Shown here one piece after another: positions 4,741 to 19,785 of a stretch of 50,787 nt of DNA; within the stretch, counting starts at the first letter, position 1, and each line of letters begins with the position of its first letter. The DNA is from Calothrix sp. FI2-JRJ7. Its GTDB lineage: Bacteria > Cyanobacteriota > Cyanobacteriia > Cyanobacteriales > Nostocaceae. The DNA is taken from the NCBI GenBank assembly GCA_019359675.1, contig JAHHGX010000028.1:1-50787 (forward strand). The letters are read 5' to 3'. The notes beneath the pieces are model-generated. The model saw only the letters and a list, made by a program, of their open reading frames with translations. It was not told the DNA's origin and searched no databases. The position numbers and the translations under genes are program-made.

Positions 4741-4814
4741 GAATTTATACTCGTACTTGGGCTACCTTAGCTTAAGATAGCTTGAAGCAGTAGCTTGATT
4801 ATTGTAGTAGCACC

Positions 4815-5684
4815 ATGTCTTTTAACCAAGGTTCTTCGCAACCCATTCAACCGTTGAGTATTGGTAACGTAGTTACTGCTGGACTTAGGCTGTATAGTTC
4901 ACATCTCAAATCTTATTTAAAACTAGCATTTATTGCTTATGCCTGGATACTTGTACCCGTTTACGGTTGGGCAAGATGCGGCGCCACTTTAGCATTAATA
5001 TCTCGATTGGCATATAGCGAACTAGTTGAACAACCAGAAACTCCATTAGAAGCGGGTCGTTTTTTAAGAGCGCGGTTATGGCAATTTCTGGTCATGGGTT
5101 TATTAATGTTTTTACTTATTATTGGTATCACAATTGGAGTAATTATATTATTATTTATTTTGGCACTAATAATGGGAGTGGTATTAGGAATTTTTATACC
5201 TGGAGGCGCCGCAAACGATGCTTTTAATCCTGTAGTAGCGTTAGTATCATTTACATTGGTACTTGTTTATATAGGTCTAATTTTCAGCGTCTTTCTTTTA
5301 GTGCAAGCACGTTTTATACTTGTTGAAGTGCCTTTAGCAATTGAAAATTCTACTGATGGAGCATCTACAATTAAGCGAAGTTGGAATTTGACAAGGGGTA
5401 ATTTATGGCGAATTGTTGCAATTATTATTGTCACTTATTTATTAACTTTTCCGCTTCAAGTACCTTTAAGTGTGTTAAATATCATTATTCAAATTTCCTT
5501 ACAACCTTTAGCACGAATAAATAGTAACTATAGGTTGTTAGCTGCAATAGTAAATATAGTTTTAACTTTAATTAGTATTGCATTAGTAGTACCATTGTGG
5601 CAAACAATTAAAGCCGTACTTTACTGTGATTTACGAAGTCGTCGTGAAGGTTTTGGCTTAAAGTTGCGCGACCGTAATGTGTAG
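4815..5684 (+). CDS. Multi-pass membrane protein, glycerophosphodiester phosphodiesterase membrane-domain-like
   Basis: The protein has 289 residues with about six hydrophobic helices. It begins with IGNVVTAGLRLYSSHLKSYL, typical of GPDPase_memb/DUF975-type proteins, and has the conserved middle motif RFILVEVPLAIENSTDGAS followed by KRSWNLTRGNLWRI. No catalytic domain is attached, so the role is unclear (membrane scaffold or transport partner). The gene is 21 bp from the RDD gene downstream and divergent from SpoIIM, so all three may share a promoter region at 4741-4814. Confidence 0.75.
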   Translation: MSFNQGSSQPIQPLSIGNVVTAGLRLYSSHLKSYLKLAFIAYAWILVPVYGWARCGATLALISRLAYSELVEQPETPLEAGRFLRARLWQFLVMGLLMFLLIIGITIGVIILLFILALIMGVVLGIFIPGGAANDAFNPVVALVSFTLVLVYIGLIFSVFLLVQARFILVEVPLAIENSTDGASTIKRSWNLTRGNLWRIVAIIIVTYLLTFPLQVPLSVLNIIIQISLQPLARINSNYRLLAAIVNIVLTLISIALVVPLWQTIKAVLYCDLRSRREGFGLKLRDRNV

Positions 5685-5705
5685 AAAAATTATGTTAAAA
5701 AAATT

Positions 5706-6497
5706 ATGCATATTTTTAATCGCGTTAAATTTATTACACCAGAAAGTGTTGAGCTTGAATTTATTTTAGCTGGTATTGGTAGTCGAACTTTTGCTCTATT
5801 AATTGATTATCATGTTTTAGCTTTAATAATAGCGTTGATTTTCACTATTTGGCTAACAGTTTCTTATCAAATATATACTTTTGGTAGACAAATATTTGGT
5901 GAGCAAACTAATAACTGGGTAGTTGCAATAGCATTCTTAATTTTATTTGCAGTTTACGCTGGATATTTTGTATTTTTTGAAACTTTATGGCAAGGGCAAA
6001 CACCAGGTAAACGTTTTGCCAAAATTCGCGTTGTTCGTGATGATGGTAGACCTGTAGGACTTCAGCAAACAACTTTACGTGCGCTGCTGCGACCTTTTGA
6101 TGAAATTTCTTTTATTGGCGCCTTGCTAATTATGTTTAATCAGAAAGAAAAGCGTTTAGGTGATTTCGTCGCAGGTACAATCGTAATTCAAACGTCTTCT
6201 ATCGCTGTTTCTGAAAAACAAAAATTAACACTGTCAGAATCTTCTAATTCAGCTTGTGAAAAAATTTTAGAAACTACTGATTTATCACCAATGCTTGCTG
6301 ATGATTTTGCAGTTATTCGGGAATATTTAGTGCGGCGCCATATAATGTCAAAACAAGCACGAGCAGCACTTGCTATTGAGCTTACTCAACAAGTACAGTC
6401 AATTATTCAATTAAATAACTTACCTGATGGAATTAGCCCAGATACTTTTTTAGAAGGCATTTATCTTGCCTATCAAAAAACATCGATAAACGAATAA
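5706..6497 (+). CDS. RDD-family membrane protein
   Basis: The protein has 263 residues. The RDD domain occupies about residues 18-165, with the first helix after GSRTFALLIDYHVLAL (Arg and Asp of the signature), a TPGKRFAKIRVVRDDG loop and LGDFVAGTIVI. The C-terminal ~95 residues are soluble and helical. RDD proteins have been linked to ion transport in some bacteria; the substrate here cannot be read. It follows the multi-pass membrane gene and probably shares its transcript. Confidence 0.85.
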   Translation: MHIFNRVKFITPESVELEFILAGIGSRTFALLIDYHVLALIIALIFTIWLTVSYQIYTFGRQIFGEQTNNWVVAIAFLILFAVYAGYFVFFETLWQGQTPGKRFAKIRVVRDDGRPVGLQQTTLRALLRPFDEISFIGALLIMFNQKEKRLGDFVAGTIVIQTSSIAVSEKQKLTLSESSNSACEKILETTDLSPMLADDFAVIREYLVRRHIMSKQARAALAIELTQQVQSIIQLNNLPDGISPDTFLEGIYLAYQKTSINE

Positions 6498-6502
6498 TCG
6501 TA

Positions 6503-7042
6503 TTAATAAATTTTTACTTCAGTATTAGTATACTCTGGCATCCAACCGCGCGCACTGGAAAAATATCGAACAGCTTTTATATTTAAAGACGCAGCAGGAC
6601 TAAACCAATGTTCGTATTGAGAAGGTATATGAATAAAATCGTGTGCTTGTAGCAACAACTGCACTTGACTTCCATTCGGTAATACAAAACCGAAAATTGC
6701 TTCACCAGACAAAACATACAGCGCTTCTGCATCTTCGTGAGTATGGTAGCGGCTGTATGTATAGGTATGCGTATATAAATTTGGCGAACCAGGATGTAGC
6801 ATAAACAGGTCATAGCAAAAATAATCACCTTTCTGCTTAATAAAATCAAGTTCTTGCTGATGCAGTTGTGAGATGTGGTCTTTTTCTAAATAGCTAAGAA
6901 CATCTTGTGCAAGCAAAGCGGCAAAAGAGGGTGATTCTTCTAAGTCGTAATGCTTTAATTGAATCGAGAGCGGAGCTAATATTTCCATAATTTGGCTCTC
7001 TTCAGTTAAAATTTCGCCGTTATTAAGCTTCAAGGTCGCCAT
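6503..7042 (-). CDS. mtnD: Acireductone dioxygenase (1,2-dihydroxy-3-keto-5-methylthiopentene dioxygenase)
   Basis: This is a 179-residue cupin of the ARD family, which oxidises the acireductone of the methionine salvage pathway to the keto-acid precursor of methionine plus formate. The metal ligands are visible: H100, H102 and E106 in RYHTHEDAEALYVL, and H145 in FIHIPSQYEHWF. The C-terminus RYFSSARGWMPEYT matches the family ending. The length is normal. No other methionine salvage gene lies nearby. The 3' end is 5 bp from the convergent RDD gene. Confidence 0.9.
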   Translation of the reverse strand: MATLKLNNGEILTEESQIMEILAPLSIQLKHYDLEESPSFAALLAQDVLSYLEKDHISQLHQQELDFIKQKGDYFCYDLFMLHPGSPNLYTHTYTYSRYHTHEDAEALYVLSGEAIFGFVLPNGSQVQLLLQAHDFIHIPSQYEHWFSPAASLNIKAVRYFSSARGWMPEYTNTEVKIY

Positions 7043-7152
7043 GTCAGTACTCTTTTAAACTTGTTTTGAATTAATACCTTAATACTAATACCACACAATC
7101 CCGCCCGGATAAAAGTAGATTGTATATAAATATATTCTACCATTGCATGGTT

Positions 7153-7548
7153 TTAATTTGACAACTGCATTTCGTTGATTAAATCTTGCAATCCCAAATC
7201 TTTAAACAAAGGTGTACTAAGATAGCGCTCACCAAAACTTGGTTGAACTACAACAATCAAGCGTCCAGCGTTTTCAGTTCGTTTACCAATTTGAATGGCA
7301 GCATACAACGCCGCTCCTGTAGATATACCAGATAAAATACCTTCTTCTGATGCTAGGCGCCGACTATAAGTAATAGCGTCATCATCATTAACTCGAATAA
7401 CCTCATCAATTAACTCAAGTTTTAATATCGGTGGAATAAATCCGGCGCCGATACCCTGTATTTTATGTGACCCTGGTTTCCCACCACTAAGTATAGAACT
7501 ATTAGCAGGTTCAACGGCAACCACCTTAAATTCAGGTCTTACACTATA
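7153..7548 (-). pseudogene. Cysteine synthase C-terminal fragment
   Basis: About 130 residues match the last 40% of O-acetylserine sulfhydrylase (CysK): [53 protein letters not shown] and the C-terminal [10 protein letters not shown]. The N-terminal ~190 residues, with the PLP lysine, are missing. An in-frame stop lies just upstream (TAA read on the reverse strand near 7550), and the dispersed repeat at 7603 begins soon after. The remainder cannot be an active enzyme. Confidence 0.85.
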
Positions 7549-7602
7549 TTACACTAACTCTACCAAATAACCGTAGATTTGAATCAAAAAAATTTTCGCC
7601 AC

Positions 7603-7665
7603 GTAGGGTGCGTGACGCCATCAAGAAAATTCAGCGTAGCTATAAGACAAATAGCGTCACGCACC
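7603..7665. repeat. Dispersed hairpin repeat, GTAGGGTGCG class, copy 1
   Basis: The element is ~63 bp with inverted ends: it opens with GTAGGGTGCGTGACGC and closes with GCGTCACGCACC. Two further copies are at 15956-16044 and 39070-39150, sharing the interior pattern (aa)TTcaaCGTAG.(t)A.A(a)GAC. It resembles the very small mobile repeats known in Nostocales. It lies between the cysK fragment and a small membrane ORF. Confidence 0.8.
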
Positions 7666-7679
7666 AACTCCCCAATATA

Positions 7680-7901
7680 TCAAGACCCCGTTTGCAACAA
7701 AGCCGCAGAAACAGCAATCATAAAGCAAACAAAAGAATATTTTACACCAGACCTATTTTGATAAATAGCTGCCTGCAAACCCATAAACACAGAGCCTACA
7801 ACCATAGCAGCACAAGCCAAAGACTGCCAATTTTGTATAAATAACATCATAGTACACAACCCAATATTATATATCCATAGGCTCAATATATGGCTCATCA
7901 C
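7680..7901 (-). CDS. Small hydrophobic ORF or membrane-protein remnant, 73 aa
   Basis: The ORF encodes two or three membrane-type helices (IYNIGLCTMMLFIQNWQSLA, ACAAMVVGSVFMGLQAAI, YSFVCFMIAVSAALL). I recognise no family. The frame is open upstream of the ATG, and the 3' end abuts the dispersed repeat, so this may be the truncated end of a longer membrane protein. The rest of 7549-8000 holds only the repeat and AT-rich sequence. Confidence 0.3.
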   Translation of the reverse strand: MMSHILSLWIYNIGLCTMMLFIQNWQSLACAAMVVGSVFMGLQAAIYQNRSGVKYSFVCFMIAVSAALLQTGS

Positions 7902-8000
7902 ACGCGTGCATCTTCCGTCAAACGAAAGAATTCGGCGCCATCAAAAGAAGCAAAGTTAGTAAGATAAATTTAAAAGCAGCTTTTTTCGGGAAGTCCAAAA

Positions 8001-8215
8001 ATGAATAATCCATTCCCAGGAATGAATCCATATTTAGAGAATCCTGTATTTTGGGCAGAGTTACATCATAGATTGATTACAGCGATAGCTGACGCAATTG
8101 AGGCAAATATCCCACAGCAATATCACGTTGCCATTGAACAACGTACTTATTTAAGTGATGACTCAGATACTATATCTGTTTTTTCTAAACAACTGGCGCC
8201 ACAGCTTTCTACATC
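8001..8215 (+). pseudogene. DUF4058 protein, 5' fragment
   Basis: The start MNNPFPGMNPYLENPVFWAE, then HHRLITAIADAIEANIP and YHVAIEQRTYLSD, are the unmistakable N-terminus of the cyanobacterial DUF4058 family (normally ~250 residues). Similarity ends about residue 70; the remaining frame runs to 8330, into the 3' end of the convergent parA gene. The function of the family is unknown. This copy is truncated. Confidence 0.75.
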
Positions 8216-8269
8216 CTGCTTTCGTCTTAGAGGTGGTTTTGACTGGCGCCAGCCAAAACCAATTAAATA

Positions 8270-9154
8270 TCACAATTTCATTAATAACTCTTGTGTCAAC
8301 TGCACAAAAGATTTAGAACCAGGGGACTGAGGATTATTCAAAACTACAGGCATAAAACTATCAACAGCTTTTGCGACGTTCATATCCATCGGTACCTGGC
8401 TTTTAAACACCTTGCTATCGCCAAAGTCTTGATATACACGGTTCATTACCTGCTTATAATACCTACCACTGAGCAAATTACCGCTGTACATGGTAAATAC
8501 AATCCCCAGCATTTGAATATCAATCTTAGCTTCGTGTTCGTGACTATCTTTTAGCTGGGCAATACGTCTTTCTAAAAGTTGAATCCCAACTATAGATAAT
8601 GGCTCAGGTTTTGCTGGCAATATATAATAATTACTCGTTGCTAGTGCGCTACGTGTTAGTAAAGTATAACCGGGAGCGCAATCACAAATAATAAAATCGT
8701 ACTCATCGCGTATCGGTTCCAATATTTTACTTAGCAGGACTCGTTCAAAACGGTTCCAAATAGTCTCAAAATCCTTCTCACCCAAAGTTACCGCTTGCTG
8801 GTGCAAAAGTTCCGACACCACAAATTCATCGTACAAGTCAATGTCACCAGGTATCATATCTAGACCCTGTACATTACACACTTGCTTTTGAATTACATCA
8901 TGAATTGTATGGCTCGGCGCCTCACTAGGGGTCATAATTTGGTCAATTAAATATCGAAACGTTTTGCCCTGTTTACGACGATTAGCAAACTCAACAGGAG
9001 ACATCAAACTTAGAGTAGCGCTAATTTGCGTATCCAAATCGATTACTAACACCCGTTTACCGTGATTTTTCGCCAAACAAGTGGCCATATTAACAGTTAG
9101 CGTAGTTTTACCTACACCACCCTTCATATTCGCAGTCGCAATTACATATCCCAT
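8270..9154 (-). CDS. ParA-family ATPase (solitary)
   Basis: The protein has 294 residues. The deviant Walker A KGGVGKTT lies at residues 11-18 with the signature lysine K11. Walker A' is VLVIDLDTQ near 35 and the Walker B region is DFIICDCAPGY near 150. Proteins of this family dimerise on ATP and position plasmids, chromosomes or protein cargo on the nucleoid. It lacks an N-terminal DNA-binding helix-turn-helix, as in small ParA/Soj types. No ParB gene is adjacent, so the cargo is unknown. The start is supported by GGAAGGG about 8 bases upstream of the ATG. Together with the second ParA at 11.0 kb it suggests plasmid-derived DNA. Confidence 0.9.
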   Translation of the reverse strand: MGYVIATANMKGGVGKTTLTVNMATCLAKNHGKRVLVIDLDTQISATLSLMSPVEFANRRKQGKTFRYLIDQIMTPSEAPSHTIHDVIQKQVCNVQGLDMIPGDIDLYDEFVVSELLHQQAVTLGEKDFETIWNRFERVLLSKILEPIRDEYDFIICDCAPGYTLLTRSALATSNYYILPAKPEPLSIVGIQLLERRIAQLKDSHEHEAKIDIQMLGIVFTMYSGNLLSGRYYKQVMNRVYQDFGDSKVFKSQVPMDMNVAKAVDSFMPVVLNNPQSPGSKSFVQLTQELLMKL

Positions 9155-9185
9155 TATTCAACCCTTCCAATAACGCATTCACATT

Positions 9186-9217
9186 GTAGGTTGGGTGGAG
9201 GCTTTGCGGAACCCAAC
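9186..9217. repeat. GTAGGTTGGGT...ACCCAAC dispersed palindrome, copy 1
   Basis: GTAGGTTGGGT, a GGAGGCTTTGCG-like middle and ACCCAAC form a 32-bp imperfect palindrome. Near-identical copy at 41255-41286; a third copy, split by another repeat, is at 10634-10710. Confidence 0.8.
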
Positions 9218-9342
9218 ATATATATGAGTATTTATATAAGTTACCTCCCCATACCCCTCACAATTTCAAGCAGTCAAAATTATACCAGCGAAGAATAACT
9301 AACAGGGCAAACAAAAAAGAGATTTTGCAGAGTACATTTCTT

Positions 9343-9531
9343 TCTTGTGGAGCGAGCATCCTTGCCCGCCCTAAATATCAAACAAGCAAACTACTGCTCT
9401 ATGCTATTCATTTTTAGGTAAAGATAATTACCTTATTAGACACAGAGTACGCAGAGAGAAGAGTAAGAGGAGGTTAAGATTGGCGCCTAAATATTTGAAT
9501 GGAACGGGCAAGGATGCCCATCCCACAAGAT
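9343..9531. repeat. MITE-like element with ~27-bp inverted ends
   Basis: The left end, starting TCTTGTGG and ending GCATCCTTGCCCG, is mirrored at 9504-9531 by CGGGCAAGGATGCCC plus ATCCCACAAGA. The ~135-bp interior shows no ORF. Single-ended relatives of the right end are at 21051 and 21645. Confidence 0.6.
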
Positions 9532-9619
9532 GGTTAGTTTCATTTTTGGTAATTAATATATATTCAGTAAATCACAAAGTTTTTTAGAAACTTTACCACA
9601 TAAGCATTTGAGCAAAACA

Positions 9620-9971
9620 TTAATTACTTGACACAGCGCGAATCGGTTGTATGCTCAAGCGATAGCCAAGATTATGAAGAACAAGGCTAATGGTTCGCAG
9701 TTCAGGGTTTCCCTCTGAAGACAAAGCCCGATAGAGGTTTTGACGATTCAAACCCGTTTTTTCCGCAAAGTGGGTCATCCCAAACCGTGCCTCCACCACA
9801 TTCCGCAGTGCTTCCAGAAAAAACGCGCTCCTCCCCATCCTGCTCGTACTCTTCAAGGGCAACCTCCAAGTATGCCTTTGCCATTTCCGGGTTTTGTAGC
9901 TGTTCTATTAGCACCTCGTCATGGTTTCTAAGTTTCTTGCCCCGGAAAGTTCCTCCTGGTAAGCTTGCCAA
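9620..9971 (-). pseudogene. HigA-like/XRE addiction-module antidote protein, frameshifted
   Basis: The C-terminal part carries the helix-turn-helix MTHFAEKTGLNRQNLYRALS, then EGNPELRTISLVLHNLGYRL, typical of addiction-module antidote proteins. The N-terminal part (NHDEVLIEQLQNPEMAKAYL, then EVALEEYEQDGEE) lies in another frame. Removing one base from the six-A run at 9818-9823 joins them as EERVFLEALRNVVEA, the normal ~115-residue protein. The only visible 5' start is a TTG at 9971 adjoining an FtsK-type relic. No HigB/RelE-type toxin gene was found next to it. Read the frameshift as a true lesion or a homopolymer error. Confidence 0.75.
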
Positions 9972-9991
9972 TATTTATTAGGTTTATAAAT

Positions 9992-10128
9992 AGGCGCCTG
10001 TTAGGTAATAGTAAATCACCTTTCCCTAATAAATACGCTGCGGAATTTTGTTTTCCACCAAGAATAATCATCGAGTCAGCTTCACTTGCGGTCTTCAAAG
10101 CTACTCTTCCTGAAAATTTGAACGGATA
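9992..10128 (-). pseudogene. FtsK/SpoIIIE-type ATPase C-terminal relic, copy 1
   Basis: Reverse-strand translation includes ALKTASEADSMIILGGKQNS followed by AAYLLGKGDLL. This resembles the segment of FtsK-type DNA translocases that reads (R)VAS..DSR.IL....AE.LLG.GDML. About 45 residues survive. It is a diverged direct repeat of 10500-10623. The + strand UPF0175 frame runs out of its right edge. Confidence 0.4.
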
Positions 10129-10381
10129 TCCTGACGATATCGTTTACCAACTCGCTGATAACCCTGAGCAACTATCGAGACGCGCGCTTGAATCCCTCGT
10201 CGTTGATGCTTACCGCAGTCGTCAACTTTCTACTGCCGAAGTACAGCGTATTCTCAACCTTCCCGGACGACTAGCAACCGATGCCTTCCTTAAAGCCCAT
10301 GAAGCCTACCTACCTTACACCGAAACAGACCTCGTTCAATATTTACAATCAATAAACCAAGCCTTATTCAAAGTTTGCTAA
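10085..10381 (+). CDS. UPF0175-family (antitoxin-like) protein with replaced 5' end
   Basis: The core PENLNGYPDDIVYQLADNPE, then ALESLVVDAYRSRQLSTAEV, ILNLPGRLATDAFLKAHEAY and a Y(T)ETDL tail match UPF0175, small HTH proteins that usually act as antitoxins beside PIN-domain or DUF3368 toxins. The 5' end is merged with the FtsK-type relic and no good ATG with a ribosome site precedes the conserved part. The only ATG is at 9965, far upstream in non-homologous sequence. The start given is therefore approximate. No toxin gene follows. Probably an orphan or pseudogene. Confidence 0.6.
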   Translation, partial: LAVFKATLPENLNGYPDDIVYQLADNPEQLSRRALESLVVDAYRSRQLSTAEVQRILNLPGRLATDAFLKAHEAYLPYTETDLVQYLQSINQALFKVC

Positions 10382-10445
10382 ATCGTTACCATCAAGAACA
10401 AACTGAATAAAGCGTGGCTGTCCTATATCATTTTATAATGCGCGC

Positions 10446-10635
10446 TTATTTGTTAAGTTGTATATTTGTCGCAAATAAGCTTTGTAAACGGTCTAAGTCG
10501 GCGCCTGTTTGGTAAAGTAAATCACCTTTTCCTAATAAGTACGCTGCTAAATTTTGTTTTCCATCAAAGAATAATAATTGAGTCAGCTTCAAAGCTGCTC
10601 TTCTCAGTAAATTTGAACGGATAAAAGAGAATAGT
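10446..10635 (-). pseudogene. FtsK/SpoIIIE-type ATPase C-terminal relic, copy 2
   Basis: In-frame residues KQNLAAYLLGKGDLLYQTGA, then DLDRLQSLFATNIQLNK and a stop, resemble the end of an FtsK/HerA-like translocase (LLGKGDLLY...G..LDRLQ.L). Upstream (~10600) the frame breaks, and the SDR-type repeat at 10634 follows. Bases 10500-10623 are a diverged direct repeat of 9992-10128. Confidence 0.4.
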
Positions 10636-10710
10636 AGGTTGGGTAAAGGCTTTGCGCTCACGTAGTGTTCCGTTATCCGGAGGATATCCCGAAGGGTAGG
10701 AAAACTCAAC
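10634..10710. repeat. GTAGGTTGGGT palindrome, copy 3, split by a second repeat
   Basis: GTAGGTTGGGTAAAGGCTTT begins the same palindrome as at 9186, but about 40 bases with their own dyad (CCGTTATCCGGAGGATATCC region, then CGAAGGGTAGG) lie between its left arm and the right arm AAAACTCAAC. This looks like a nested insertion. Confidence 0.6.
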
Positions 10711-10712
10711 AT

Positions 10713-11015
10713 ATTAGTTAATATTGTAATTATCCATACATAACAATAAGTAATTCTTATTACTAATATTTCCTGATACAGTGTAACAATAAGTGAGGTA
10801 TCACCGTGTTCAAAACAAAAACACTTACAGGAGGACTATAAAAATTGACTTTTAACCCAGAGCTTTGCGGTAACGAAAGCGAAGTCGAAACAAGCTTATG
10901 ACTATCGCATCAAGATAAATAATAACGAACTGGTGATTTTATTGTTGATCACTATTAATTCATGTATATACTGATTCAGTATTAGTTAAAATAATACAAA
11001 AAATCCTATACTTAT
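10713..11015. other. Upstream region of the nuclease-ParA operon
   Basis: This 303-bp AT-rich stretch has two dyads: AGTAAT-4 nt-ATTACT near 10751-10766, and a 15-bp palindrome at 10968-10982. An AGGAGG at about 10829-10834 has no clear gene behind it. An 11-codon GTG frame (VFKTKTLTGGL) runs through it but is too short to call. Confidence 0.5.
10968..10982. promoter_or_regulatory. Candidate operator: 15-bp palindrome ATACTGA-T-TCAGTAT
   Basis: Two perfect 7-base arms separated by one base lie 33 bases before the ATG of the nuclease-ParA gene. Position and symmetry fit an autoregulatory operator or a parS-like site. Function is inferred from position only. Confidence 0.4.
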
Positions 11016-12491
11016 ATGTCTGCTGACTATACTTCCAATTTACAGAGCATTTTTAATAATATCTCACCCGAAAGTAGTGAATCAGATGTCGAAAAAAAAG
11101 TTATAGTTCCACTTTTGCAAATGCTGGGTTACAGTCCAAAAGATTGGGAACCACAAGCAGTGGTTGGTAAATCTAAACTTGATTTTCTGGTACTTTCACC
11201 TACCTCAGAGATTCCATATGCACCCTATTTAGTCATTGAAGTAAAAGCTCCTAGCAAAAATCTTGCTCAAAACATATGGCAAATCAATGACTATATGAGA
11301 AAGACAGTTGCGTTTATTGGATTGTTAACAAACGGATACGAATTTCGTATCATTTATAATTATCAACTTAAGCCAAAAGAAATATTAAATTACTCTCAAA
11401 AAGATTTTATTGATAATTTTGATTCATTAAATAAATTGTTATCAAAGCCTACTTTTTTAACTATTTATAAAACAATATACCAGAACGAACAAAGTTTTCG
11501 CTCTAAATTTTTAGAACAAATTTCAAAACTATTTAAAGATGAAAAAACCATAACTAATGTTAATGAAAAGTCTAGTACTGAGAAAATTATTCCACCAGCT
11601 ATAGAAAAAGAAAAGGAGAAAAGTATGATTATTACTATATTTAATAATAAAGGTGGTGTAGGTAAAACTACAACAACTATTAACCTTGCAGCAGCATTAA
11701 GTAAGCTGGGAAAACGTGTACTTTTGATTGATATTGACGCTCAAGCTAATTTAACAACAGGATTAGGAATTGATCCGTTAGAGGATATCGAAGATCAAGG
11801 CAAGAAAGATATAACTGATTTACTTTTAGACCCCAGAACCAAATTAGAAGATGTAGTTATTCATAAACAGTGGGATGATGTTGAACTGGATATAGTTCCA
11901 TCTCATATTCGTTTAAGCGATATGGAAGCAGCATTAATTATGACACCAGATGTAGACAGAGTATTATCAAAGAAGCTAAGGAGATATAATGAAAAGTATG
12001 ACTATGTATTAATTGACCCACCACCATCATTTGGTAAAGCTAACACTATTTCCTTAATGGCATCTTCTGCTGTATTTATTCCTACGCAATTAACTCCTTA
12101 CCCAGTTCGTGCATTAGAATATGTAATTAATAGAGCTATTGCAGTAGATGAATCTAGAGATGACTCTTTACATATTTTAGGTATAGCAGTAAGTATGTAC
12201 GAGAGATCAGCAAGCAAAAATATTACTACAATGAGTCAAAAAATTTTAGAAATTATTGCTAAAAAAGATGAAAGTAAAGATTTAGAATTATTTCCACGCC
12301 ATACATGGATTCCACGTTTAACTATTGTTGCTAATGCATCAGATACAGATAAAGCTTATCCTCTTTGCTATGCTGAATTTGATAAAAGTTTAAGTAGTAA
12401 AGAGAAAGAGTCTGCACAAGATGCTTTTAACTGTTATATAGAGTTAGGAAAGTACTTAATTTCTGCTGTAGATAAAAAACGGAGTAAGTAA
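11016..12491 (+). CDS. PD-(D/E)XK nuclease (HsdR_N-like)-ParA ATPase fusion
   Basis: The protein has 491 residues. Residues ~15-125 resemble the N-terminal nuclease domain of type I restriction HsdR: E26 in the first helix, D56 in SKLDFLVL, E75 and K77 in YLVIEVKAPS, then QINDYMR near 89. Residues ~130-203 are a helical linker. Residues 204-491 are a complete ParA: KGGVGKTT at 212-219 (signature K212), LLIDIDAQ at 237-243 and YVLIDPPPSFG with D334. All catalytic residues of both domains are present. An AAGGAG six bases before ATG 11625 (M204) could start free ParA. The next gene begins right after the stop. There is no GGCGCC in the gene. The role is unknown: plasmid-type partition, anti-invader defence or a hybrid are possible. 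Confidence 0.85.
   Translation: MSADYTSNLQSIFNNISPESSESDVEKKVIVPLLQMLGYSPKDWEPQAVVGKSKLDFLVLSPTSEIPYAPYLVIEVKAPSKNLAQNIWQINDYMRKTVAFIGLLTNGYEFRIIYNYQLKPKEILNYSQKDFIDNFDSLNKLLSKPTFLTIYKTIYQNEQSFRSKFLEQISKLFKDEKTITNVNEKSSTEKIIPPAIEKEKEKSMIITIFNNKGGVGKTTTTINLAAALSKLGKRVLLIDIDAQANLTTGLGIDPLEDIEDQGKKDITDLLLDPRTKLEDVVIHKQWDDVELDIVPSHIRLSDMEAALIMTPDVDRVLSKKLRRYNEKYDYVLIDPPPSFGKANTISLMASSAVFIPTQLTPYPVRALEYVINRAIAVDESRDDSLHILGIAVSMYERSASKNITTMSQKILEIIAKKDESKDLELFPRHTWIPRLTIVANASDTDKAYPLCYAEFDKSLSSKEKESAQDAFNCYIELGKYLISAVDKKRSK
11613..11627 (+). promoter_or_regulatory. Internal Shine-Dalgarno and ATG inside the nuclease-ParA gene
   Basis: AAGGAGAA (11613-11620) ends shortly before ATG 11625, exactly at the ParA domain boundary (MIITIFNNKGGVGKTT). 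Initiation here would give a 288-residue stand-alone ParA. The caveat is that Lys/Glu codons naturally spell AAGGAG. Confidence 0.45.
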
Positions 12492-13268
12492 ATGAACGAG
12501 AATGAAAGACGTAAAAAAATTGTCAATTATTTACGGATAAAACCAGTAAATCATGGTCAAGTTTATACATTTCAGATAGCTATACCACCATCTGAAGTAC
12601 TAGATATTTCTTTTGAAAGGAGTGAGTATTTAAAGCTGAGTTTTGCACATCAAGGTACTAATTTAATTCCTCTAATTGTACGTCGTACTGAAGCATATTC
12701 TGAAGAAGAAGATTATGAAGTTGTATATGGTATTGACTGGTTGTTGATTGCAAAAGAAGTAAATATCGAAAAGCTGTGGGTTTGGGTTTTTGATATGACT
12801 GATGAGGAAGTTGCTATCACAAAACAAGAAATGCAGCAGTTAATGGGGAATTCAGACCCTACTCCTAACGAATTAGGAATTGAATCTGACGAAAAAGGAC
12901 AGCTTAAGCCAGTATTTGAGCTATTAGATAGGGTATTGCAGCAAATAACAATACTGAATAAAAAAATCGAGTTAGTAACCACATCTGTTAAAGATATTAA
13001 GACGGTTGAAAGTCAAAAAGAACTATCTGAGGATGCATTAATTACTAAAGTTACTACAATTGTGAAAGAAGCAATTGAAGACATTGTAAATAAAATATTA
13101 GAGTCTTCATCGTATCGTAGTTCTACAAGTATAGTAAAAGGAAAAGACTACGAATCGATGACAGTCATGGAACTTAAAGTAATAGCTTTGGAGCAAAATA
13201 TAAAAGGACGTACCAAAATGAAAAAACAGGAGCTTATTGCAGCAATTAAAAAAAATGAAAGTAGCTAA
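12492..13268 (+). CDS. ParB-like protein with C-terminal Rho_N/SAP-type domain
   Basis: The protein has 258 residues; its ATG follows the upstream TAA with no gap. Residues ~20-115 have the ParB/sulfiredoxin layout: IPPSEVLDISFERSEYLKL, LIPLIVRRTEAY, YEVVYGIDWLLIAKEVNIEK and WVWVFDMTDEEV, with GIDW where ParB has GERR. Residues ~140-200 are helical and probably coiled coil. Residues ~220-256 (MTVMELKVIALEQNIKGRTK, then MKKQELIAAIKK) match the Rho termination factor N-terminal/SAP-like nucleic-acid-binding fold. It is the likely partner of the nuclease-ParA fusion, acting as DNA-binding and ATPase-stimulating factor (inference). No GGCGCC inside. It converges on the exonuclease gene 5 bp away. 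Confidence 0.75.
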   Translation: MNENERRKKIVNYLRIKPVNHGQVYTFQIAIPPSEVLDISFERSEYLKLSFAHQGTNLIPLIVRRTEAYSEEEDYEVVYGIDWLLIAKEVNIEKLWVWVFDMTDEEVAITKQEMQQLMGNSDPTPNELGIESDEKGQLKPVFELLDRVLQQITILNKKIELVTTSVKDIKTVESQKELSEDALITKVTTIVKEAIEDIVNKILESSSYRSSTSIVKGKDYESMTVMELKVIALEQNIKGRTKMKKQELIAAIKKNESS

Positions 13269-13273
13269 ATTAC

Positions 13274-14740
13274 TTAACTACTACTTTCAAAATAACTTTG
13301 ACATTTTTGCTGTTGCGGGCAAATTTTACACAAGTGTGGCTGGATAGTAGCTGGGGGTGGGTTCGGCGCCGGCGCCCTCCAAGTCAACCATTGCTGCATT
13401 TGTTGTAATTTACGGGGAATTAGTGTGTGGGCTATATGTTCTAGCTGTTCCCAAGAATAATAATATTCTTTAAATGGCAAAATACAGTAAACCAGCGAAT
13501 CAATAGGCGCCTTTTTATTTTGCGAAAGCATATAGCTGTAAACTGCAACTTGTGCTAGCTGCGCTGATAAGTCTACAGGTTGATAAGCTTTAAACTCAAT
13601 TAAGCATAAACGGTTAATATCAAAATTGAAAACTAAGTAATCATATCTACCTAAAACTCTTAGCTGTGAGTTATCAGGCAAGTTGAAATAATGTTCGAGC
13701 TTACGGTCTTCAACAATAAAAGTTTCACTAATCACGTATTCAGCATCACAATAGTTTCGGTTAATTATTAGTAGCTCTGCAAAGCGTATAATTAATTCTT
13801 TCAAACCTTCCCAAACTTTGAGCAGTGGTTGAGCTAGGTTTGAATCTTTACTTGTAGCCTTTTGTAAATAAGCGTAGAATATTCTGTTGTAATAAAGCTG
13901 TTGTATGTTATGAGCTATTTGCTCTACAACTAACTCTGATGCAGATGGTCTAAATAACTCTATAAAGTCTGGTTTATTAAGTAGTAAATTAATCAATTCA
14001 TCTACTAAGTTATGGAATTGACCAATATCAACAACGTTCTCTGTCTGTAAAAATAATGTACTACCTCCAAAATGATGGTTTAGATAGAGTAAGCGTGGGC
14101 ATTCAAATGCTAATCTTAATTTATTCGGTGTTAAAGACTTGGGTTTTTCGGCTAACTGTACAGAACTTGGCGCCACTTCAATAACAGAAGTTAGTACATT
14201 AGCTTTAGAAAATGTGAGCAAACGTTGATGAACAGCAGCTAGATAAACCGTATCCATAGCGGCATATTTTAGCTGCTTTTGAGTAAGTGGGCGCCTTCCC
14301 CAGTCACTTCCTTGTTCTTCTTTATCTACATCTGAGAAGTTACATAGCTCTGTGGCTAAGGTTTTTAACTGTAAATTAGAAACTTGTAAAACTTCCTTAC
14401 TTATCCTTCTGGCTTTTTTTAATGTACAAGTAATGTTTTGTGCATCAATACTACCAAGATATTTTAAATCAAAGCTTGCATTATGAAATACTTTTTCAAT
14501 TTGAGGATTAATCATGATTTTATTAATGAAGTAGGAAATCAAATCATGTTTATCCAAAACATCAAAAATATACACTGACTGGCTTGCTGCATCATTAGCT
14601 TTTGTTAACACTTGTATTATAGAAAGCCTAGGTTTTTCAGTATACCAGTCAGCAATTTCTGTATCTACCCATAATATTTTAGCCGAAGTAAGTTCGTTAA
14701 TTTTCGTTATGATTTCGATGCTTCCTGTTAAATATTGCAT
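13274..14740 (-). CDS. DEDDy 3'-5' exonuclease (RNase D-like) fused to Cas4-like PD-(D/E)XK nuclease
   Basis: The protein has 488 residues. Residues 1-180 form a DEDDy exonuclease: D26/E28 in WVDTEIAD, D91 in FHNASFDLKYL, Y159/D163 in LKYAAMDTVYL, with the RNase D-like SDWGRRPLTQKQL. Residues ~200-488 form a RecB/Cas4-like nuclease: D367 in GRYDYL, E382/K384 in LIEFKAY, QxxxY at 397-401, and four cysteines (C214, C471, C474, C480) placed as in the Cas4/AddB iron-sulfur cluster. All catalytic residues are intact. No cas1/cas2 or CRISPR lies in the window. A repair or defence nuclease acting on DNA or RNA ends is likely. CAGGAAT precedes the ATG. Confidence 0.8.
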   Translation of the reverse strand: MQYLTGSIEIITKINELTSAKILWVDTEIADWYTEKPRLSIIQVLTKANDAASQSVYIFDVLDKHDLISYFINKIMINPQIEKVFHNASFDLKYLGSIDAQNITCTLKKARRISKEVLQVSNLQLKTLATELCNFSDVDKEEQGSDWGRRPLTQKQLKYAAMDTVYLAAVHQRLLTFSKANVLTSVIEVAPSSVQLAEKPKSLTPNKLRLAFECPRLLYLNHHFGGSTLFLQTENVVDIGQFHNLVDELINLLLNKPDFIELFRPSASELVVEQIAHNIQQLYYNRIFYAYLQKATSKDSNLAQPLLKVWEGLKELIIRFAELLIINRNYCDAEYVISETFIVEDRKLEHYFNLPDNSQLRVLGRYDYLVFNFDINRLCLIEFKAYQPVDLSAQLAQVAVYSYMLSQNKKAPIDSLVYCILPFKEYYYSWEQLEHIAHTLIPRKLQQMQQWLTWRAPAPNPPPATIQPHLCKICPQQQKCQSYFESSS

Positions 14741-14898
14741 GATTCCTGATAACTATATAAATTATTTAGCGACTAAGCAAATTAACTGCTCCACGTTTTT
14801 ATTAGTATCCATAACTTTAACTCTATCTTCATCTGGCAAAGCATCAAATTAGTTCAATTGTACAGTAAAATAAATGCAGTAGCTTTTAGCTGTGTAGC

Positions 14899-15738
14899 TT
14901 AGTAAACAGTAATAAAAAAGAGCGAACCACCTATATTCTGAATAATTCCAGCTTCAACTTGGTCGGGCTTATAATCTGTGGGGTCAAGTAAAGTACTTAA
15001 CTCTATCTGGTCGCTTGCTTGCAGACGGTAAAGTGCTTTGTCCAATTCATCGCGCGTTAGTGGTGGCTGTAACTTTTTCCGTAAGTGGAAGATTGGTAAA
15101 TAATTGTCACTACCAAGCTCCCTGTCTAAATTCCGGATAATTTATAAAATTTCTTCATCGTTAATATTTGTATCTTTTTGAACTAATGGCTCTACGTTAT
15201 CTATCGGTGTAGATAGCTGTTGTGAATGACCGCATAGAGTTTTCCGCATGAAGCGCAGGTAATTACCAAGCAAGTCTAAGCTGATATTCCCGGCGCCTTC
15301 AGCAACATAATCATCTCGCAAATACTCAATACCGCGTTCAGTAAGCCAAACTTCAGCCTTTGTCTTTTTGATTTTCTCTTCAGCTTCAATCAAACCCTTA
15401 TCAATCAAAACTTTTATTATCTCATCCCGTTTACTAGCTTCTAGCGAAGTAATTTTATTAATAATTTTTTCAGAAGCCTTACTAATCTTTTCCAATACCT
15501 GACGTTCTTCTTGTGTTATCGACACTTCTTTAGGGTCAAGCTTTAGCAAATCTTGACCTTGAGATAAAATCTTGACCGTAGCAATTTCACGGGTATAGTC
15601 TATAAGTTTTTGCTTACCCAAAGAAAGACAAATCTTATCTTTAGTCTTCAAAGACTTAAATTCAATGGCATCCTAGCTAGAACTATAATCGTTATATCGC
15701 AGTAACTGAAGAAGAAAAGTTAATTCATTAATATCCAT
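14899..15738 (-). pseudogene. Winged-helix-like hypothetical protein with two in-frame stop codons
   Basis: From ATG 15738 one frame runs 840 bases to TAA 14899-14901 with only two interruptions: TAG at 15673-15675 and TAA at 15142-15144. Before the first stop it reads MDINELTFLLQLLRYNDYSS. The middle gives DAIEFKSLKTKDKICLSLGK, ATVKILSQGQDLL, a helical region, VLIDKGLIEAEEKI with KAEVWLTERGIEYLRDDY (winged-helix-like), and ISLDLLGNYLRFMRK. After the second stop come YLPIFHLRKKLQPPLTRDEL and a C-terminus GGSLFFITVY. The frame is kept over ~279 codons, so these are recent point mutations or read-through codons. The family is unrecognised. It lies upstream of the exonuclease fusion on the same strand. 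Confidence 0.65.
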
Positions 15739-16156
15739 CGATAATCTTAATTTTGGCTGAACTCAACAATATTTAGCTTCGGCAGTAAAAATTTACACAT
15801 ATTTTTTATTCCATCGGGAATTAGTGCCTATGGACTATTAACTCCCTGGCAAACTAGAAAATTCTTAGATTTATACAGTCACGCTTAACTTCACTTGCAC
15901 TAATTTAAGGAGGTATAATTACTGTTGCTTGTTCCCAAAGCTTTTCATTTTAGCGCTTACGCAATTAGCATGTAAAAAACGTAGGGTGCGTAACACTACC
16001 AAAAAATTTCAACGTAGTTACAAGACCTGTAGCGTTACGCACCGACTCTCCCGAATGAGAATATCGTTATTTATTTCAATGTCAAATCATATACAACAGC
16101 TATAGAGTCACGCTGAAAATGGAATCATAAGTCCAAGAGTTAATCTAGTTCGATTT
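15652..16156. other. Gene-poor stretch with a dispersed repeat
   Basis: Apart from the 5' end of the interrupted gene (to 15738) and the hairpin repeat at 15956-16044, I see no gene. An AAGGAGGT at about 15907 is not followed by a convincing ORF. Confidence 0.5.
15956..16044. repeat. Dispersed hairpin repeat, GTAGGGTGCG class, copy 2
   Basis: CTTACGCAATTAGCA and an A-run lead into GTAGGGTGCGTAAC...GTAGCGTTACGCACC. The flank CTTACGC(a/g)ATT(a/g)GC is shared with copy 3 but not copy 1, so the complete element is ~85-90 bp. Confidence 0.75.
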
Positions 16157-16420: not shown

Positions 16421-17364
16421 CGTTGCCAACTGAATAATATTCCATTCTTTTTCATTATCTCTTTCATTTTCAGCCAACTTTTTCTAATAAAAGTAATTCG
16501 CCATCCTGCCCATGCAGTTAAATCGATGTATTGGAAAAATAACATTCTATTTGGGTGTTTACAACCTAGTTTCCAAGGTTTCGCAGATGATGAAAAATGA
16601 ACAATATAAGAATCGTTAATTACGTTATTATACATTTCTTCGGTCAAAGAAGTTTCTTTCCATGATGAATAAGTATGTATAACAGCTTGGCTATTCCATC
16701 TTAGGTCAAGCTCGCTCCATTTTCCTGCAATTACTGCATTCATCGCATCTTGCTCATGCCAGCGAATATATAGTTGATTATTACTTATATAGTTAACTAT
16801 TTTTTGTGAAAGATTATCACGGCGCCATTTATCAACGTTAAGAACTAAAACTCCTGCATTGAAATATTTACAATCTGGAGCTATTCCAAGTTGCTGATAG
16901 TTTTGTAAACCCTTGGGGGAAGACACATAAGTTGTGTCTATATCCATATCTCGCACTGCTAATACATAATTATCTGCAATTTCTGTATCCCATAATTTCT
17001 CTATGTTGGTTTTTACTATTACATCACTATCTAAATAAATTGCTTTCTGATACTTTGCAGGTAGTAACTCAGGAATTAAAATTCTATAATACGAAGCAAT
17101 TGTGATATGCCTGGAAATTATGACATTAGTGAGTTTTGCTTCATCTGGCACAAGCCACTCAATAGTCACGTTAGGTTTATTTAAAGATTTAAGAATTTTC
17201 TTTTTATTTGCTTGTGCAATTTTATTTGCAATTATACATATGACTACCTGACGTTGACTACTGACATGAGCAATTACAGATGACATAGTTGTGGCTAATG
17301 GCATTGAATAATTATCGTCTGCACAGCCAACAATTACAATCGGACTTTTTTCCGTAACGAGCAT
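16414..17364 (-). CDS. Glycosyltransferase family 8 (LgtC-like)
   Basis: The protein has 316 residues with a GT-A fold: the nucleotide-sugar start IVIVGCADDNYSMPLATTM, the metal-binding DxD in AIYLDSDVIV (~residue 110), KYFNAGVLVLNVDKW, WHEQDAMNAV and a C-terminal HFSSSAKPW. Family 8 enzymes are retaining galactosyl- or glucosyltransferases working on lipopolysaccharide or exopolysaccharide. The sugar cannot be read. It belongs with the three following transferase-type genes. Its last bases overlap the frame of the dead TpsA gene. Confidence 0.85.
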   Translation of the reverse strand: MLVTEKSPIVIVGCADDNYSMPLATTMSSVIAHVSSQRQVVICIIANKIAQANKKKILKSLNKPNVTIEWLVPDEAKLTNVIISRHITIASYYRILIPELLPAKYQKAIYLDSDVIVKTNIEKLWDTEIADNYVLAVRDMDIDTTYVSSPKGLQNYQQLGIAPDCKYFNAGVLVLNVDKWRRDNLSQKIVNYISNNQLYIRWHEQDAMNAVIAGKWSELDLRWNSQAVIHTYSSWKETSLTEEMYNNVINDSYIVHFSSSAKPWKLGCKHPNRMLFFQYIDLTAWAGWRITFIRKSWLKMKEIMKKNGILFSWQRA

Positions 17365-17436
17365 TATAAACCTAACTCCTATATCAAATGTGATTGACGC
17401 AGAAAAAACAGTATTGCAATAGTAGAGATAAAAACG

Positions 17437-18444
17437 TTATGAAACTAGCATTCTGACTTTTTTTGTAGCTTTTTTATATAATCTAGAAAATTTCTCGCTT
17501 AAGCTGGGAGAATAAAAGTTTTGCGGTTTACTTTCAGGGTGTTTCAAAAAGCGGTAATGCAAAAACTCTTCTTTGTAGCGTATATCTACATTTTCACCAG
17601 AACACAAACGAGTAAAATCGATTGTTGGGTAGTTCATATAGTGAAGTCGGTGGATTGGCTTTAAACCTTGCTCGTTATAAAGCACATTGTTTATATTCAC
17701 AAATGGGTCTGCAATGGCGCAATTCCCGGTTCTATCCTCTCCATTTTCACTGAGAGTATAGTTAAAAAGTGGTAAGTTTGATTTAAAAGTTAAATAATTA
17801 AATAAATGAGCGTCATCCCACCAAGCAGTTAGCCACTCTACTTCTCTCTGTTCAATTAAAAGCTTTTTGTATTTCGTCAAATCTTCTGCTGTGAATAAAC
17901 CTCGCTTTGAACCAAAAAAATCAGAGCAGTGAAGTCGAGGACGTATCTGTTGTTCTGTAAATAAATTAGCTTGCTCAAGTAATGGAACATTCAATGGTAC
18001 TTTAATACGGTTTTTACTATGTATCCAGTCATCAAATACAAAGCTGTATGTATTCAATTTTTCAAAAATACCATCAAAAGACTTCATTACCAAACTATCT
18101 GCATCACAAAATACAAATGCATCAAAGTCTCCATCAAAAGCACACAATTTCCTTTGCAGATGACCAGAAGACCACCAATTTCGTGATAGTTTAGAAGCTT
18201 TGGCGCCAGGATGAACAGCCCATACCTCATTTGCGAATTCTTCCCAACGCTGAATAGATTCGCTATTATCAAAAATGGTGACATTAGCTCTAGAATTAAC
18301 TTCCTTTTGTACTAAATCTAGTTGTTCATTATAGGGGATAATACAAACAGGAATATCGCCAATATTAACTTCTATGCTATTTAATAATGCAACTAACTGG
18401 TCGTAAACAGTGTCATTTGCTAGTGTGTAAATTCCAATCTTCAT
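17437..18444 (-). CDS. Glycosyltransferase-like protein (resembles Npun_R2821/Npun_R2823 family)
   Basis: The protein has 335 residues. It starts with MKIGIYTLANDTVYDQLVAL and contains NWWSSGHLQRKLCAFDGDFD plus AFVFCDADSLVMKSFD, a DxD-like metal site. Further on are LHCSDFFGSKRGLFT, WWDDAHLFNYLTF and HRLHYMNYP. This resembles a family annotated mainly in Nostocales, without a known acceptor. It is 72 bp upstream of the GT8 gene on the same strand and probably in the same operon for surface glycan assembly. Confidence 0.65.
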   Translation of the reverse strand: MKIGIYTLANDTVYDQLVALLNSIEVNIGDIPVCIIPYNEQLDLVQKEVNSRANVTIFDNSESIQRWEEFANEVWAVHPGAKASKLSRNWWSSGHLQRKLCAFDGDFDAFVFCDADSLVMKSFDGIFEKLNTYSFVFDDWIHSKNRIKVPLNVPLLEQANLFTEQQIRPRLHCSDFFGSKRGLFTAEDLTKYKKLLIEQREVEWLTAWWDDAHLFNYLTFKSNLPLFNYTLSENGEDRTGNCAIADPFVNINNVLYNEQGLKPIHRLHYMNYPTIDFTRLCSGENVDIRYKEEFLHYRFLKHPESKPQNFYSPSLSEKFSRLYKKATKKVRMLVS

Positions 18445-18586
18445 ATATTAAAACCTCTTGATAATTAATGCTATTTAGTACACTTATTATCGGCAAAATG
18501 TTATTAATTGCTTAATCATTTTTAATCGTTTTTGATACTTATAGACATCAGAAATTATACTGAATAAAGCGTAAAATATAAACTAT

Positions 18587-19543
18587 TTAACTCAATGTTG
18601 AGTTAACTTTTCGGACTGCATCAAACGCCATTGGACGAATTGCAACGGGTAGCAGCGACAATCCTAAACCTGTTAATGCTTTGGAGAGCGAATGTGCTTT
18701 ACCTGCCAGTACTAATTGTCTTCCTTGCTGCGTCTCACCTTTCTCTATTAATCTTAGTCCTAATAATAACTGTGTTTCGGTCAGGCGCCCTTGACGGATT
18801 TTTTCTAATTTATCTGACTCAAATTTGTAGTTTTCTAAGTACTGTATTTTATCTGATAGGTAGCGAATCGCACGGTCTTTACTTTGCTGTTCAGCGTGGC
18901 AGCGATATTCCATTAATAATTCTGGTAAATAATACCCTTGTTTTCCTGATGACGCTAACCTTACAAACAAATCATTGTCTTCGCAGTTCTGCCAGTTGGG
19001 TTGCATGAAACCTACTTCTGTTAAGACTTTGCGTCTAAATAATGTGGCGCCGATTTGAAAGCTTTGACGAACGAATACCACTTCAAGCAGGTTTTCTACT
19101 ATTCCTTCTGGTAAGGTGTCTCTTCCCCAAATGCGAGAGTTATATTTGGTTTGCGCTTCGTCGCGTTGGTTGTTGATGTCTATTATCCAGTGGTCGGTAC
19201 CAACGAAATCTACTGATGGGTGGTTGTTTAAGATTGTCGCTGTATGTTCTAAAAATTTGGGTGTGAGTCTATCGTCGTCATCGAATTTTATGAAGTACTC
19301 GCCAGTTGCTGCTTCAAAACCCGCACGCATGTTGTTACTTTTTCCAACGTTTTGCTGGTGGCGGATGTATTTGATGCGGTTGTCAGTGTATTGTGACATC
19401 AGGTTGGGGGTGTCATCGCTAGAACCGTCGTCACAGATAATTAGTTCAAAGTTTTGGTAGGTTTGTTGAAGTACGCTTTCAATGGCGAAAGGTAGTAGCT
19501 TGGCACGGTTGTAGGTAGGAATCGTAATGGTTATTTTAGACAT
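18587..19543 (-). CDS. Glycosyltransferase family 2
   Basis: The protein has 318 residues with a classic GT2 domain: ITITIPTYNRAKLLPFAIES, ELIICDDGSSDDTPNLM, YFIKFDDDDRLTPKFL (metal-binding DDD), and a catalytic-base region NCEDNDLFVRLASSG. The C-terminal ~100 residues are helical. It is likely to add a sugar to a lipid-linked glycan intermediate. It lies 142 bp upstream of the Npun-type gene, same strand. Confidence 0.85.
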   Translation of the reverse strand: MSKITITIPTYNRAKLLPFAIESVLQQTYQNFELIICDDGSSDDTPNLMSQYTDNRIKYIRHQQNVGKSNNMRAGFEAATGEYFIKFDDDDRLTPKFLEHTATILNNHPSVDFVGTDHWIIDINNQRDEAQTKYNSRIWGRDTLPEGIVENLLEVVFVRQSFQIGATLFRRKVLTEVGFMQPNWQNCEDNDLFVRLASSGKQGYYLPELLMEYRCHAEQQSKDRAIRYLSDKIQYLENYKFESDKLEKIRQGRLTETQLLLGLRLIEKGETQQGRQLVLAGKAHSLSKALTGLGLSLLPVAIRPMAFDAVRKVNSTLS

Positions 19544-19785
19544 TTGTTTAGATTTTAATATATTTATATATTTCCCTAAATTTTTATTAACATAACATCG
19601 GCGCCTCTATATTCTTCAAAGGCTATATTTAATATCAGTGAGGTGGCTGTTTAATTTTTATACATTAAAATAGTTGCTTGATTTATATATCTAATATCAG
19701 GGATATTGGCGATGACGTTATCTTATAAGGTAGTTAATCCTATATTTATATAGTTTACATCTTTTTATCAGTAGAATTACTTAAA

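Follow-up and report, generated by a model that had tools for sequence, protein, structure and literature searches.

A two-gene locus of the cyanobacterium Calothrix sp. FI2-JRJ7 joins a nuclease–ParA fusion (gene A) to a ParB-like partner (gene B). We propose, with a probability of about one half, that A–B is a DNA-interference module in which ParA/ParB is armed with a nuclease; it would be the equivalent of an FtsK-based one and most likely be directed against invading DNA. The locus lies in a stretch of 50,787 nucleotides (nt), here called the window, on contig JAHHGX010000028.1 (assembly GCA_019359675.1) of an 8.66 Mb genome. Sequence and genomics provide the basis for the proposal: the pair is conserved, its active sites are invariant, its tails are exchangeable, and it and an FtsK-bearing module have recurrently replaced each other at a site anchored by a separate ParA gene. 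In the window itself, the A–B pair sits inside a wrecked nuclease–FtsK operon and replaces it.

A conserved nuclease–ParA fusion with a ParB-like partner

Gene A (11016..12491, + strand) encodes a protein of 491 amino acids (aa), composed of an HsdR_N-type PD-(D/E)XK nuclease (residues ~1–150), a linker (~151–200) and a ParA ATPase (~201–491). A first-pass annotation of the DNA had read a nuclease and a full ParA in this single frame, and Pfam searches bore it out, with 159.7 bits for AAA_31/ParA and 26.9 bits for HSDR_N (cut-off 25.1); HSDR_N_2 scored 23.9 bits, just below its cut-off of 25. The HSDR_N_2 profile matched 17 of 18 aligned members of the A family, window A among them (best E-value 4.7e-9). 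The motor is ParA/AAA_31, and the Pfam matches of A included no superfamily 2 (SF2) helicase family and no HerA/FtsK motor.

Five nuclease residues, E22, D56, E75, K77 and Y93, are identical in all 62 fused proteins compared, window A included, and likewise in 33 of 33 aligned nuclease domains. The ParA residues K212, K217, D241 and D334 are identical in the same 62 proteins, and E26 is kept in 61. Q89, which we take to be the Q of the HsdR-type QxxxY motif, is Q in 20 of the 62 and K or R in 42. The ratio of nonsynonymous to synonymous substitution rates (dN/dS) in the nuclease part was 0.07–0.30 in each of 10 pairs. The nuclease of A is under purifying selection and looks live. An AlphaFold2 model of A, built on an alignment of five sequences, reached a predicted local distance difference test (pLDDT) score of 39.7 and was unusable, so that the nuclease fold is assigned from profiles and invariant residues and not from a structure. 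Whether the N-domain matches a nuclease family had been set beforehand as a test of the annotation; it matches HSDR_N and carries the invariant active site.

Gene B (12492..13268, + strand) starts with 0 nt between it and the stop of A and encodes 258 aa, with a ParB/Srx-like N-domain (1 to ~118), a predicted coiled coil (~139–206) and a Rho_N tail (219–256). Of its earlier description as a gapless partner with a ParB-like fold and a Rho_N domain, the first and last parts hold (Rho_N 37.4 bits, cut-off 24.9), while ParB_N is sub-threshold in window B (14.4 bits, cut-off 26.3) and draws its support from the family. ParB_N is matched by 46 of 60 family B proteins at E ≤ 0.01, and some subtype-2 B proteins exceed the Pfam ParB cut-off (31.5 bits). 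An AlphaFold model of window B was of low confidence (pLDDT 50.0), and its top Foldseek rows were mostly Noc, ParB, sulfiredoxin, PadC, KorB and SbnI, two of them at E ≤ 0.001. The N-terminus of B is thus predicted to be ParB/Srx-like, mainly on the family profile matches, with the Foldseek search of a weak model as support only. The ParB helix-turn-helix (HTH) and ParB C-terminal dimer domains were not detected in window B, for which Pfam at E ≤ 1 returned only Rho_N, a weak ParB_N and a weak HeH. A search of PDB sequences with a B profile matched mainly coiled coils.

The tails of B, of kinds associated with nucleic-acid binding, fall into at least three types: Rho_N/SAP-like, helix-hairpin-helix-like (HhH) and a nameless one that we call YW, as assigned by home-made profiles seeded from the same B proteins. 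Subtype-1 proteins (B1, n = 18) carry 8 Rho_N/SAP, 3 YW and 2 HhH tails, with 5 unclassified, and subtype-2 proteins (B2, n = 42) carry 31 HhH, 8 YW and 3 Rho_N/SAP tails. The tail pool is common to both subtypes, as would be expected of a specificity determinant.

A–B is a widespread cyanobacterial family with two subtypes. With a profile from 18 A proteins and a threshold of E ≤ 1e-40, matches were obtained in 74 of 386 cyanobacterial genomes; in 58 of these the frame spans 440 aa or more. Co-occurrence of the two genes elsewhere, a further test laid down with the first-pass annotation, was also found: a ParB-like gene follows 60 of 62 fused open reading frames (ORFs; 18 B1, 42 B2), with a gap or overlap of no more than 10 nt in 52 of the 60, and one B gene so counted is a fragment (L182; L and G numbers denote our loci and genomes). 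In the loci chosen by A (L009–L012, L084, L177–L219), 44 of 46 fused ORFs have a ParB-like neighbour. The exceptions are L177, whose genome holds a B1 relative ~1 Mb away (L058), and L185, where A ends 564 nt from the contig end. The nearest named relative found, in Calothrix sp. PCC 7716, has an A that is 94% identical, at a chromosomal locus. A third, more distant nuclease–ParA type, with a partner of ~180 aa, is plasmid-borne in Nostoc sp. UHCC 0870 and Leptolyngbya boryana (L173, 4938–6900; L174, 4935–6916).

Several loci hold incomplete sets. A B1-type gene with no A of its own follows A2–B2 in L048, L049, L053 and L054, all of one genus, and a lone B1 lies beside an intact FtsK operon of the kind described below in L047; B1 can outlive its nuclease–ParA partner. 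A is in pieces in L056 and L215 (split frames), and in L061 a short frame ends early in ParA.

A–B occupies the site of an exo-FtsK operon

The site is anchored by a conserved separate ParA gene (8270..9154, − strand; 294 aa), divergent from A and 1.9 kb away. On the B side of the pair lies the 5′ remnant of an exonuclease–PDDEXK–FtsK gene, hereafter exo-FtsK (13274..14740, − strand; 488 aa), which has lost its FtsK part. On the A side lie two relics of the exo-FtsK 3′ end, both on the − strand, at 10009..10110 (query residues 815–848, 82% identity) and 10455..10661 (query residues 796–868, 47% identity). A shortened remnant of a winged HTH (wHTH)-like gene is found at 15142..15651 (− strand); it encodes 169 aa, compared with 278–294 aa in other loci, and its label is based on sub-threshold Pfam matches (HTH_45 18.1 bits, cut-off 25.5). 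The AAA ATPase gene that belongs between the wHTH-like and exo genes is gone from the window operon.

The form of the complete operon was read from eight loci taken around the anchor ParA in genomes with no A match in the 386-genome scan. In seven of them, the anchor ParA lies <1 kb downstream of an exo-FtsK gene (~870 aa), itself preceded by an AAA ATPase gene; in the eighth (L225), the exo-FtsK gene is disrupted. The full gene encodes 864–880 aa in L011, L047 and L224 and, as read in L011, comprises a 3′–5′ exonuclease, a PD-(D/E)XK domain, FtsK alpha and the FtsK motor. The operon ATPase matches Pfam AAA_16, and a wHTH-like gene precedes it in 7 of 7 longer loci with the operon.

The anchor ParA is present in 98 of the 386 phylum genomes (E ≤ 1e-60); the window's taxonomic family has it in 107 of 109 genomes (E ≤ 1e-90). 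Of these 109, 49 have an intact A, which is at most 6 kb from the anchor in 36 (divergent in 35), elsewhere on the same contig in 8 and on another contig in 5. Exo-FtsK lies <6 kb upstream of the anchor and co-directional with it in 40 of 54 exo-FtsK genomes. Relics like those of the window recur: pieces of the FtsK end (84–88% identity) are on the A side in L182 and L201, and pieces of the exo start flank B in L187 and L190. No exo-FtsK pieces were found in other A loci beside the anchor ParA (for example L043, L044, L188, L205, L211 and L214). A three-gene system made of A–B and the divergent ParA was also considered, and it is weakened because that ParA occurs in 107 of 109 genomes regardless of the module they carry.

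Intact A and intact exo-FtsK rarely coincide

Across the 109 family genomes, A is intact in 49, exo-FtsK in 54, both in 3 (G400, G430, G440) and neither in 9. Here A was scored as intact when its open frame reached 440 aa, the nuclease part being inferred from frame length for many of the genomes, and exo-FtsK when its frame was near-complete, G435 being counted with a match from residue 50. G412 has a short A frame at a contig edge, the frame in G416 may be a nuclease-less ParA and not a broken A, and G443 (38% contaminated) was kept in the sample. The overlap of 3 in 109 compares with 24.3 expected (Fisher, 6.6e-18). Because relatives are not independent, labels were also shuffled within genera, which gave a mean overlap of 11.4 and none as low as 3 in 20,000 shuffles. 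Both states are present in 16 of the 32 genera that have two or more genomes. The phylum sample of 386 genomes, which partly overlaps the family sample, holds 58 A and 31 exo-FtsK with an overlap of 0 (p 0.008); among its 43 members of the family, p falls to 1e-7, or to 2.5e-4 once collapsed to genus states.

Remains of the alternative module accompany the intact one in some genomes: exo-FtsK pieces in 8 A genomes, and an A match with no full frame in 7 exo-FtsK genomes, one at a contig edge. The operon AAA ATPase is found in 54 of 54 exo-FtsK genomes versus 7 of 49 A genomes, and 3 of those 7 hold both modules. A scan of 18 genomes for FtsK/SpoIIIE (PF01580, E ≤ 1e-8) returned exo-FtsK as the sole match in 9 of 9 exo-FtsK genomes and no match in 7 of 9 A genomes (G000 among them); the exceptions are G421, with an exo-FtsK relic and one other match, and G451, with two matches elsewhere. 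An FtsK, All7666, is named for Anabaena sp. PCC 7120 (PMC9426583). The distributions of the two modules suggest that A–B and exo-FtsK serve one and the same task, in DNA processing or DNA defence, and can be exchanged for each other.

Signs of recent replacement and mosaic exchange

The window was compared with G404, an intact exo-FtsK locus of the same genus whose anchor ParA is 99% identical. Aligned pieces of 4056–9371 and 16430–19998 are 90–95% identical between the two, and the native FtsK end survives, with window 10178–10624 being 90% identical to the G404 locus. The A–B segment (10625–13287) has no match in G404, and the exo and wHTH remnants are 77% identical. Window 10525–15938 instead shares 93–94% identity with Calothrix sp. 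PCC 7716, with the exception of ~2 kb in the latter that holds the ATPase gone from the window. The window block reads as a recent replacement, probably of a whole allele by recombination.

Exchange also seems to occur within the pair. In 150-nt bins, L187 and L190 share 93–98% identity in the opening 300 nt of A and 61–72% onward through ParA into B, whereas L213 and L214 share 89–100% throughout A and into the beginning of B, and 38–59% in the B tail. Between loci, A is much less conserved than the ParA next to it (for example, 72% versus 98% identity between L182 and L201). Faster evolution alone is an insufficient explanation, since the identity steps inside a gene are sharp. The pattern is consistent with mosaic exchange of ParA plus B, or of the B tail alone, as would be expected if these parts determined specificity.

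Neighbouring genes

The interval from the anchor ParA to A contains toxin–antitoxin-like genes (nucleotidyltransferase/HEPN, PIN and HTH, recognized by eye) in L009 (3037–3679 and 4834–5495), L011 (5002–5636) and the window (9620–10381). Direct repeats at 9154–11030 of the window are mainly the two FtsK relics, and seven imperfect inverted repeats are also present there. Further away, an ORF at 47670–48413 has a C-terminal TIR-like sequence (by eye) and an N-terminal region in common with the ORF at 48615–50159.

Proposed role and rival explanations

As A–B substitutes for the exo-FtsK operon, it should share the role of that operon, with ParA in place of FtsK. ATP-bound A would bind DNA non-specifically, as ParA does, and B would mark or bridge target DNA through its tail and engage the ParA domain. 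The ATPase cycle would then bring or license the nuclease for cutting, as directed by B, with the target set by the B tail and by ParA plus B as a unit. The first-pass annotation's suggestion that ParA/ParB action is coupled to cleavage would be compatible with this model. A–B may thereby do through ParA/ParB what the FtsK-pump module is predicted to do, namely capture DNA while it is in transit or being segregated, and degrade it; invading or extrachromosomal DNA would be the likeliest target. A fuller formulation is plausible but short of probable: A–B may represent a 'ParA capture' immune class, recurrently exchanged with a functionally equivalent FtsK-capture at a fixed ParA-anchored immunity locus on the chromosomes of cyanobacteria, its B tails being swappable target-recognition cassettes in an HsdS-like role.

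Several observations weigh against a role in interference. PADLOC gives no specific hit for A–B, returning PDC-M28B and weak N-domain matches (mad2 and DrmMI among them). We discounted PDC-M28B as a defence identity, since it also matches the ordinary ParA of the window and is therefore a generic ParA match, and the SspH match of exo-FtsK (229–234 bits) was rejected as proof of defence, E. coli FtsK itself scoring 191 bits. Inspection by eye, with no search made, revealed no methylase next to the pair, which leaves self-protection unexplained. The two modules are not incompatible, as four loci hold both intact (those of G400, G430 and G440, and L011 of Brasilonema, from another collection). 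Lastly, one or other module is retained by 100 of the 109 family genomes, and such near-universal presence exceeds what is usual for defence systems.

That last point makes chromosome maintenance the main rival. Under this explanation, the modules are two alternative nuclease-coupled machines required by a multi-copy chromosome, which might for instance clear, resolve or move DNA at division, and one has displaced the other. The near-constant anchor ParA fits such a role, as does the finding that exo-FtsK is the sole FtsK/SpoIIIE match in the exo-FtsK genomes scanned and that most A genomes scanned have none. Cyanobacteria are also described as having no classical ParA/B/S mechanism, in the part of a review available (PMC7766704), so that a chromosomal role is a serious rival. 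However, neither module is intact in 9 of 109 family genomes and in 297 of 386 phylum genomes, tails and ParA-plus-B blocks are exchanged, A diverges far faster than the neighbouring ParA, and both modules decay. On balance, chromosome maintenance is a substantial contender, but a doubtful one.

A selfish or addictive locus, in which plasmid partition, incompatibility or post-segregational killing has been captured on the chromosome, is unlikely. The ParA/ParB logic, the distant nuclease–ParA pair on two cyanobacterial plasmids and the toxin–antitoxin-like genes of L009 and L011 would agree with it. However, a search of 72,556 plasmid records (E ≤ 1e-5) found no relative of window B, and a subtype-2 nuclease and a subtype-2 B had no matches in the plasmid records either; the window nuclease domain had one, a Haladaptatus HsdR_N protein. 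The Nostoc plasmid with the distant nuclease–ParA also carries a separate ordinary ParA–ParB, and neither an iteron-like nor a parS-like array was found at 9154–11030, between ParA and A. Plasmid partition is improbable on the plasmid findings for B and the Nostoc pair and because the locus is chromosomal in Calothrix sp. PCC 7716. In phage records, 135 entries matched A, none over 80% of its length, and among viral contigs all matches of the best 80 of 488 relatives begin at residue 154 or later and hence cover ParA only.

Very improbable is a nuclease domain that is a non-cutting DNA-binding relic in a pair serving for positioning only, since D56, E75 and K77 are invariant in 62 of 62 proteins and dN/dS is low, although the Q of the presumed QxxxY motif is mostly lost and ParA–B2 pairs with no nuclease exist (L192, L220, L221).

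An interference module remains our preferred reading. ParA and ParB are known as positioning machines, and a nuclease-armed version was not found in print: no published description of a nuclease–ParA fusion or nuclease-armed ParA/ParB appeared in the literature searched, which was available in part, most subscription journals and preprints lying outside it. The either/or pattern indicates that ParA-based and FtsK-based nuclease machines can stand in for each other, so that each informs on the other, and sister strains with opposite module states exist naturally in 16 genera. The pattern bears on the function of FtsK-capture and on how cyanobacteria with no classical ParABS handle chromosomal and foreign DNA.

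Comparison with known systems

A–B shares features with several described systems. As in ParABS, a ParA ATPase gene is directly followed by a gene with a predicted ParB-type N-domain. In A–B, however, ParA is fused to a nuclease, window B has no detected ParB HTH, and the family tails are Rho_N/SAP, HhH or other; no parS was found at 9154–11030 of the window, and an A–B-like pair is not a plasmid's only partition genes. Like HsdR of Type I restriction enzymes, A has an HsdR_N-type nuclease fused to an ATPase, but that ATPase is ParA and not an SF2 helicase, and no HsdM or HsdS was noticed among the neighbouring ORFs (by eye, with no profile search). B resembles the ParB-CTPase-fold proteins surveyed in PMC12704722 in combining a ParB/Srx domain, predicted in B, with lineage-specific C-terminal domains. 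Window B scores below the Pfam ParB cut-off used in that survey, the available part of which describes no nuclease–ParA partner; some subtype-2 B proteins may be in its data.

The closest parallel is with Orc/CDC6-type HerA/FtsK capture systems, which are predicted, in the part of PMC10853773 available, to intercept invader DNA that is being segregated or transferred and may include FtsK-alpha with a fused 3′–5′ exonuclease; the prediction is echoed in the accessible part of PMC12839542. The parts of the displaced operon resemble this class as PMC10853773 presents it there, although its ATPase is identified by Pfam only as AAA_16 and the class also has an inactive nuclease domain. A–B likewise joins a predicted nuclease to a segregation-type P-loop ATPase, but A has ParA and not a HerA/FtsK pump, and the module includes a ParB-like partner and lacks its own AAA ATPase and wHTH. 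On the features compared, A–B belongs to none of ParABS, Type I restriction and HerA/FtsK capture, but it seems to operate as a ParA counterpart of HerA/FtsK capture.

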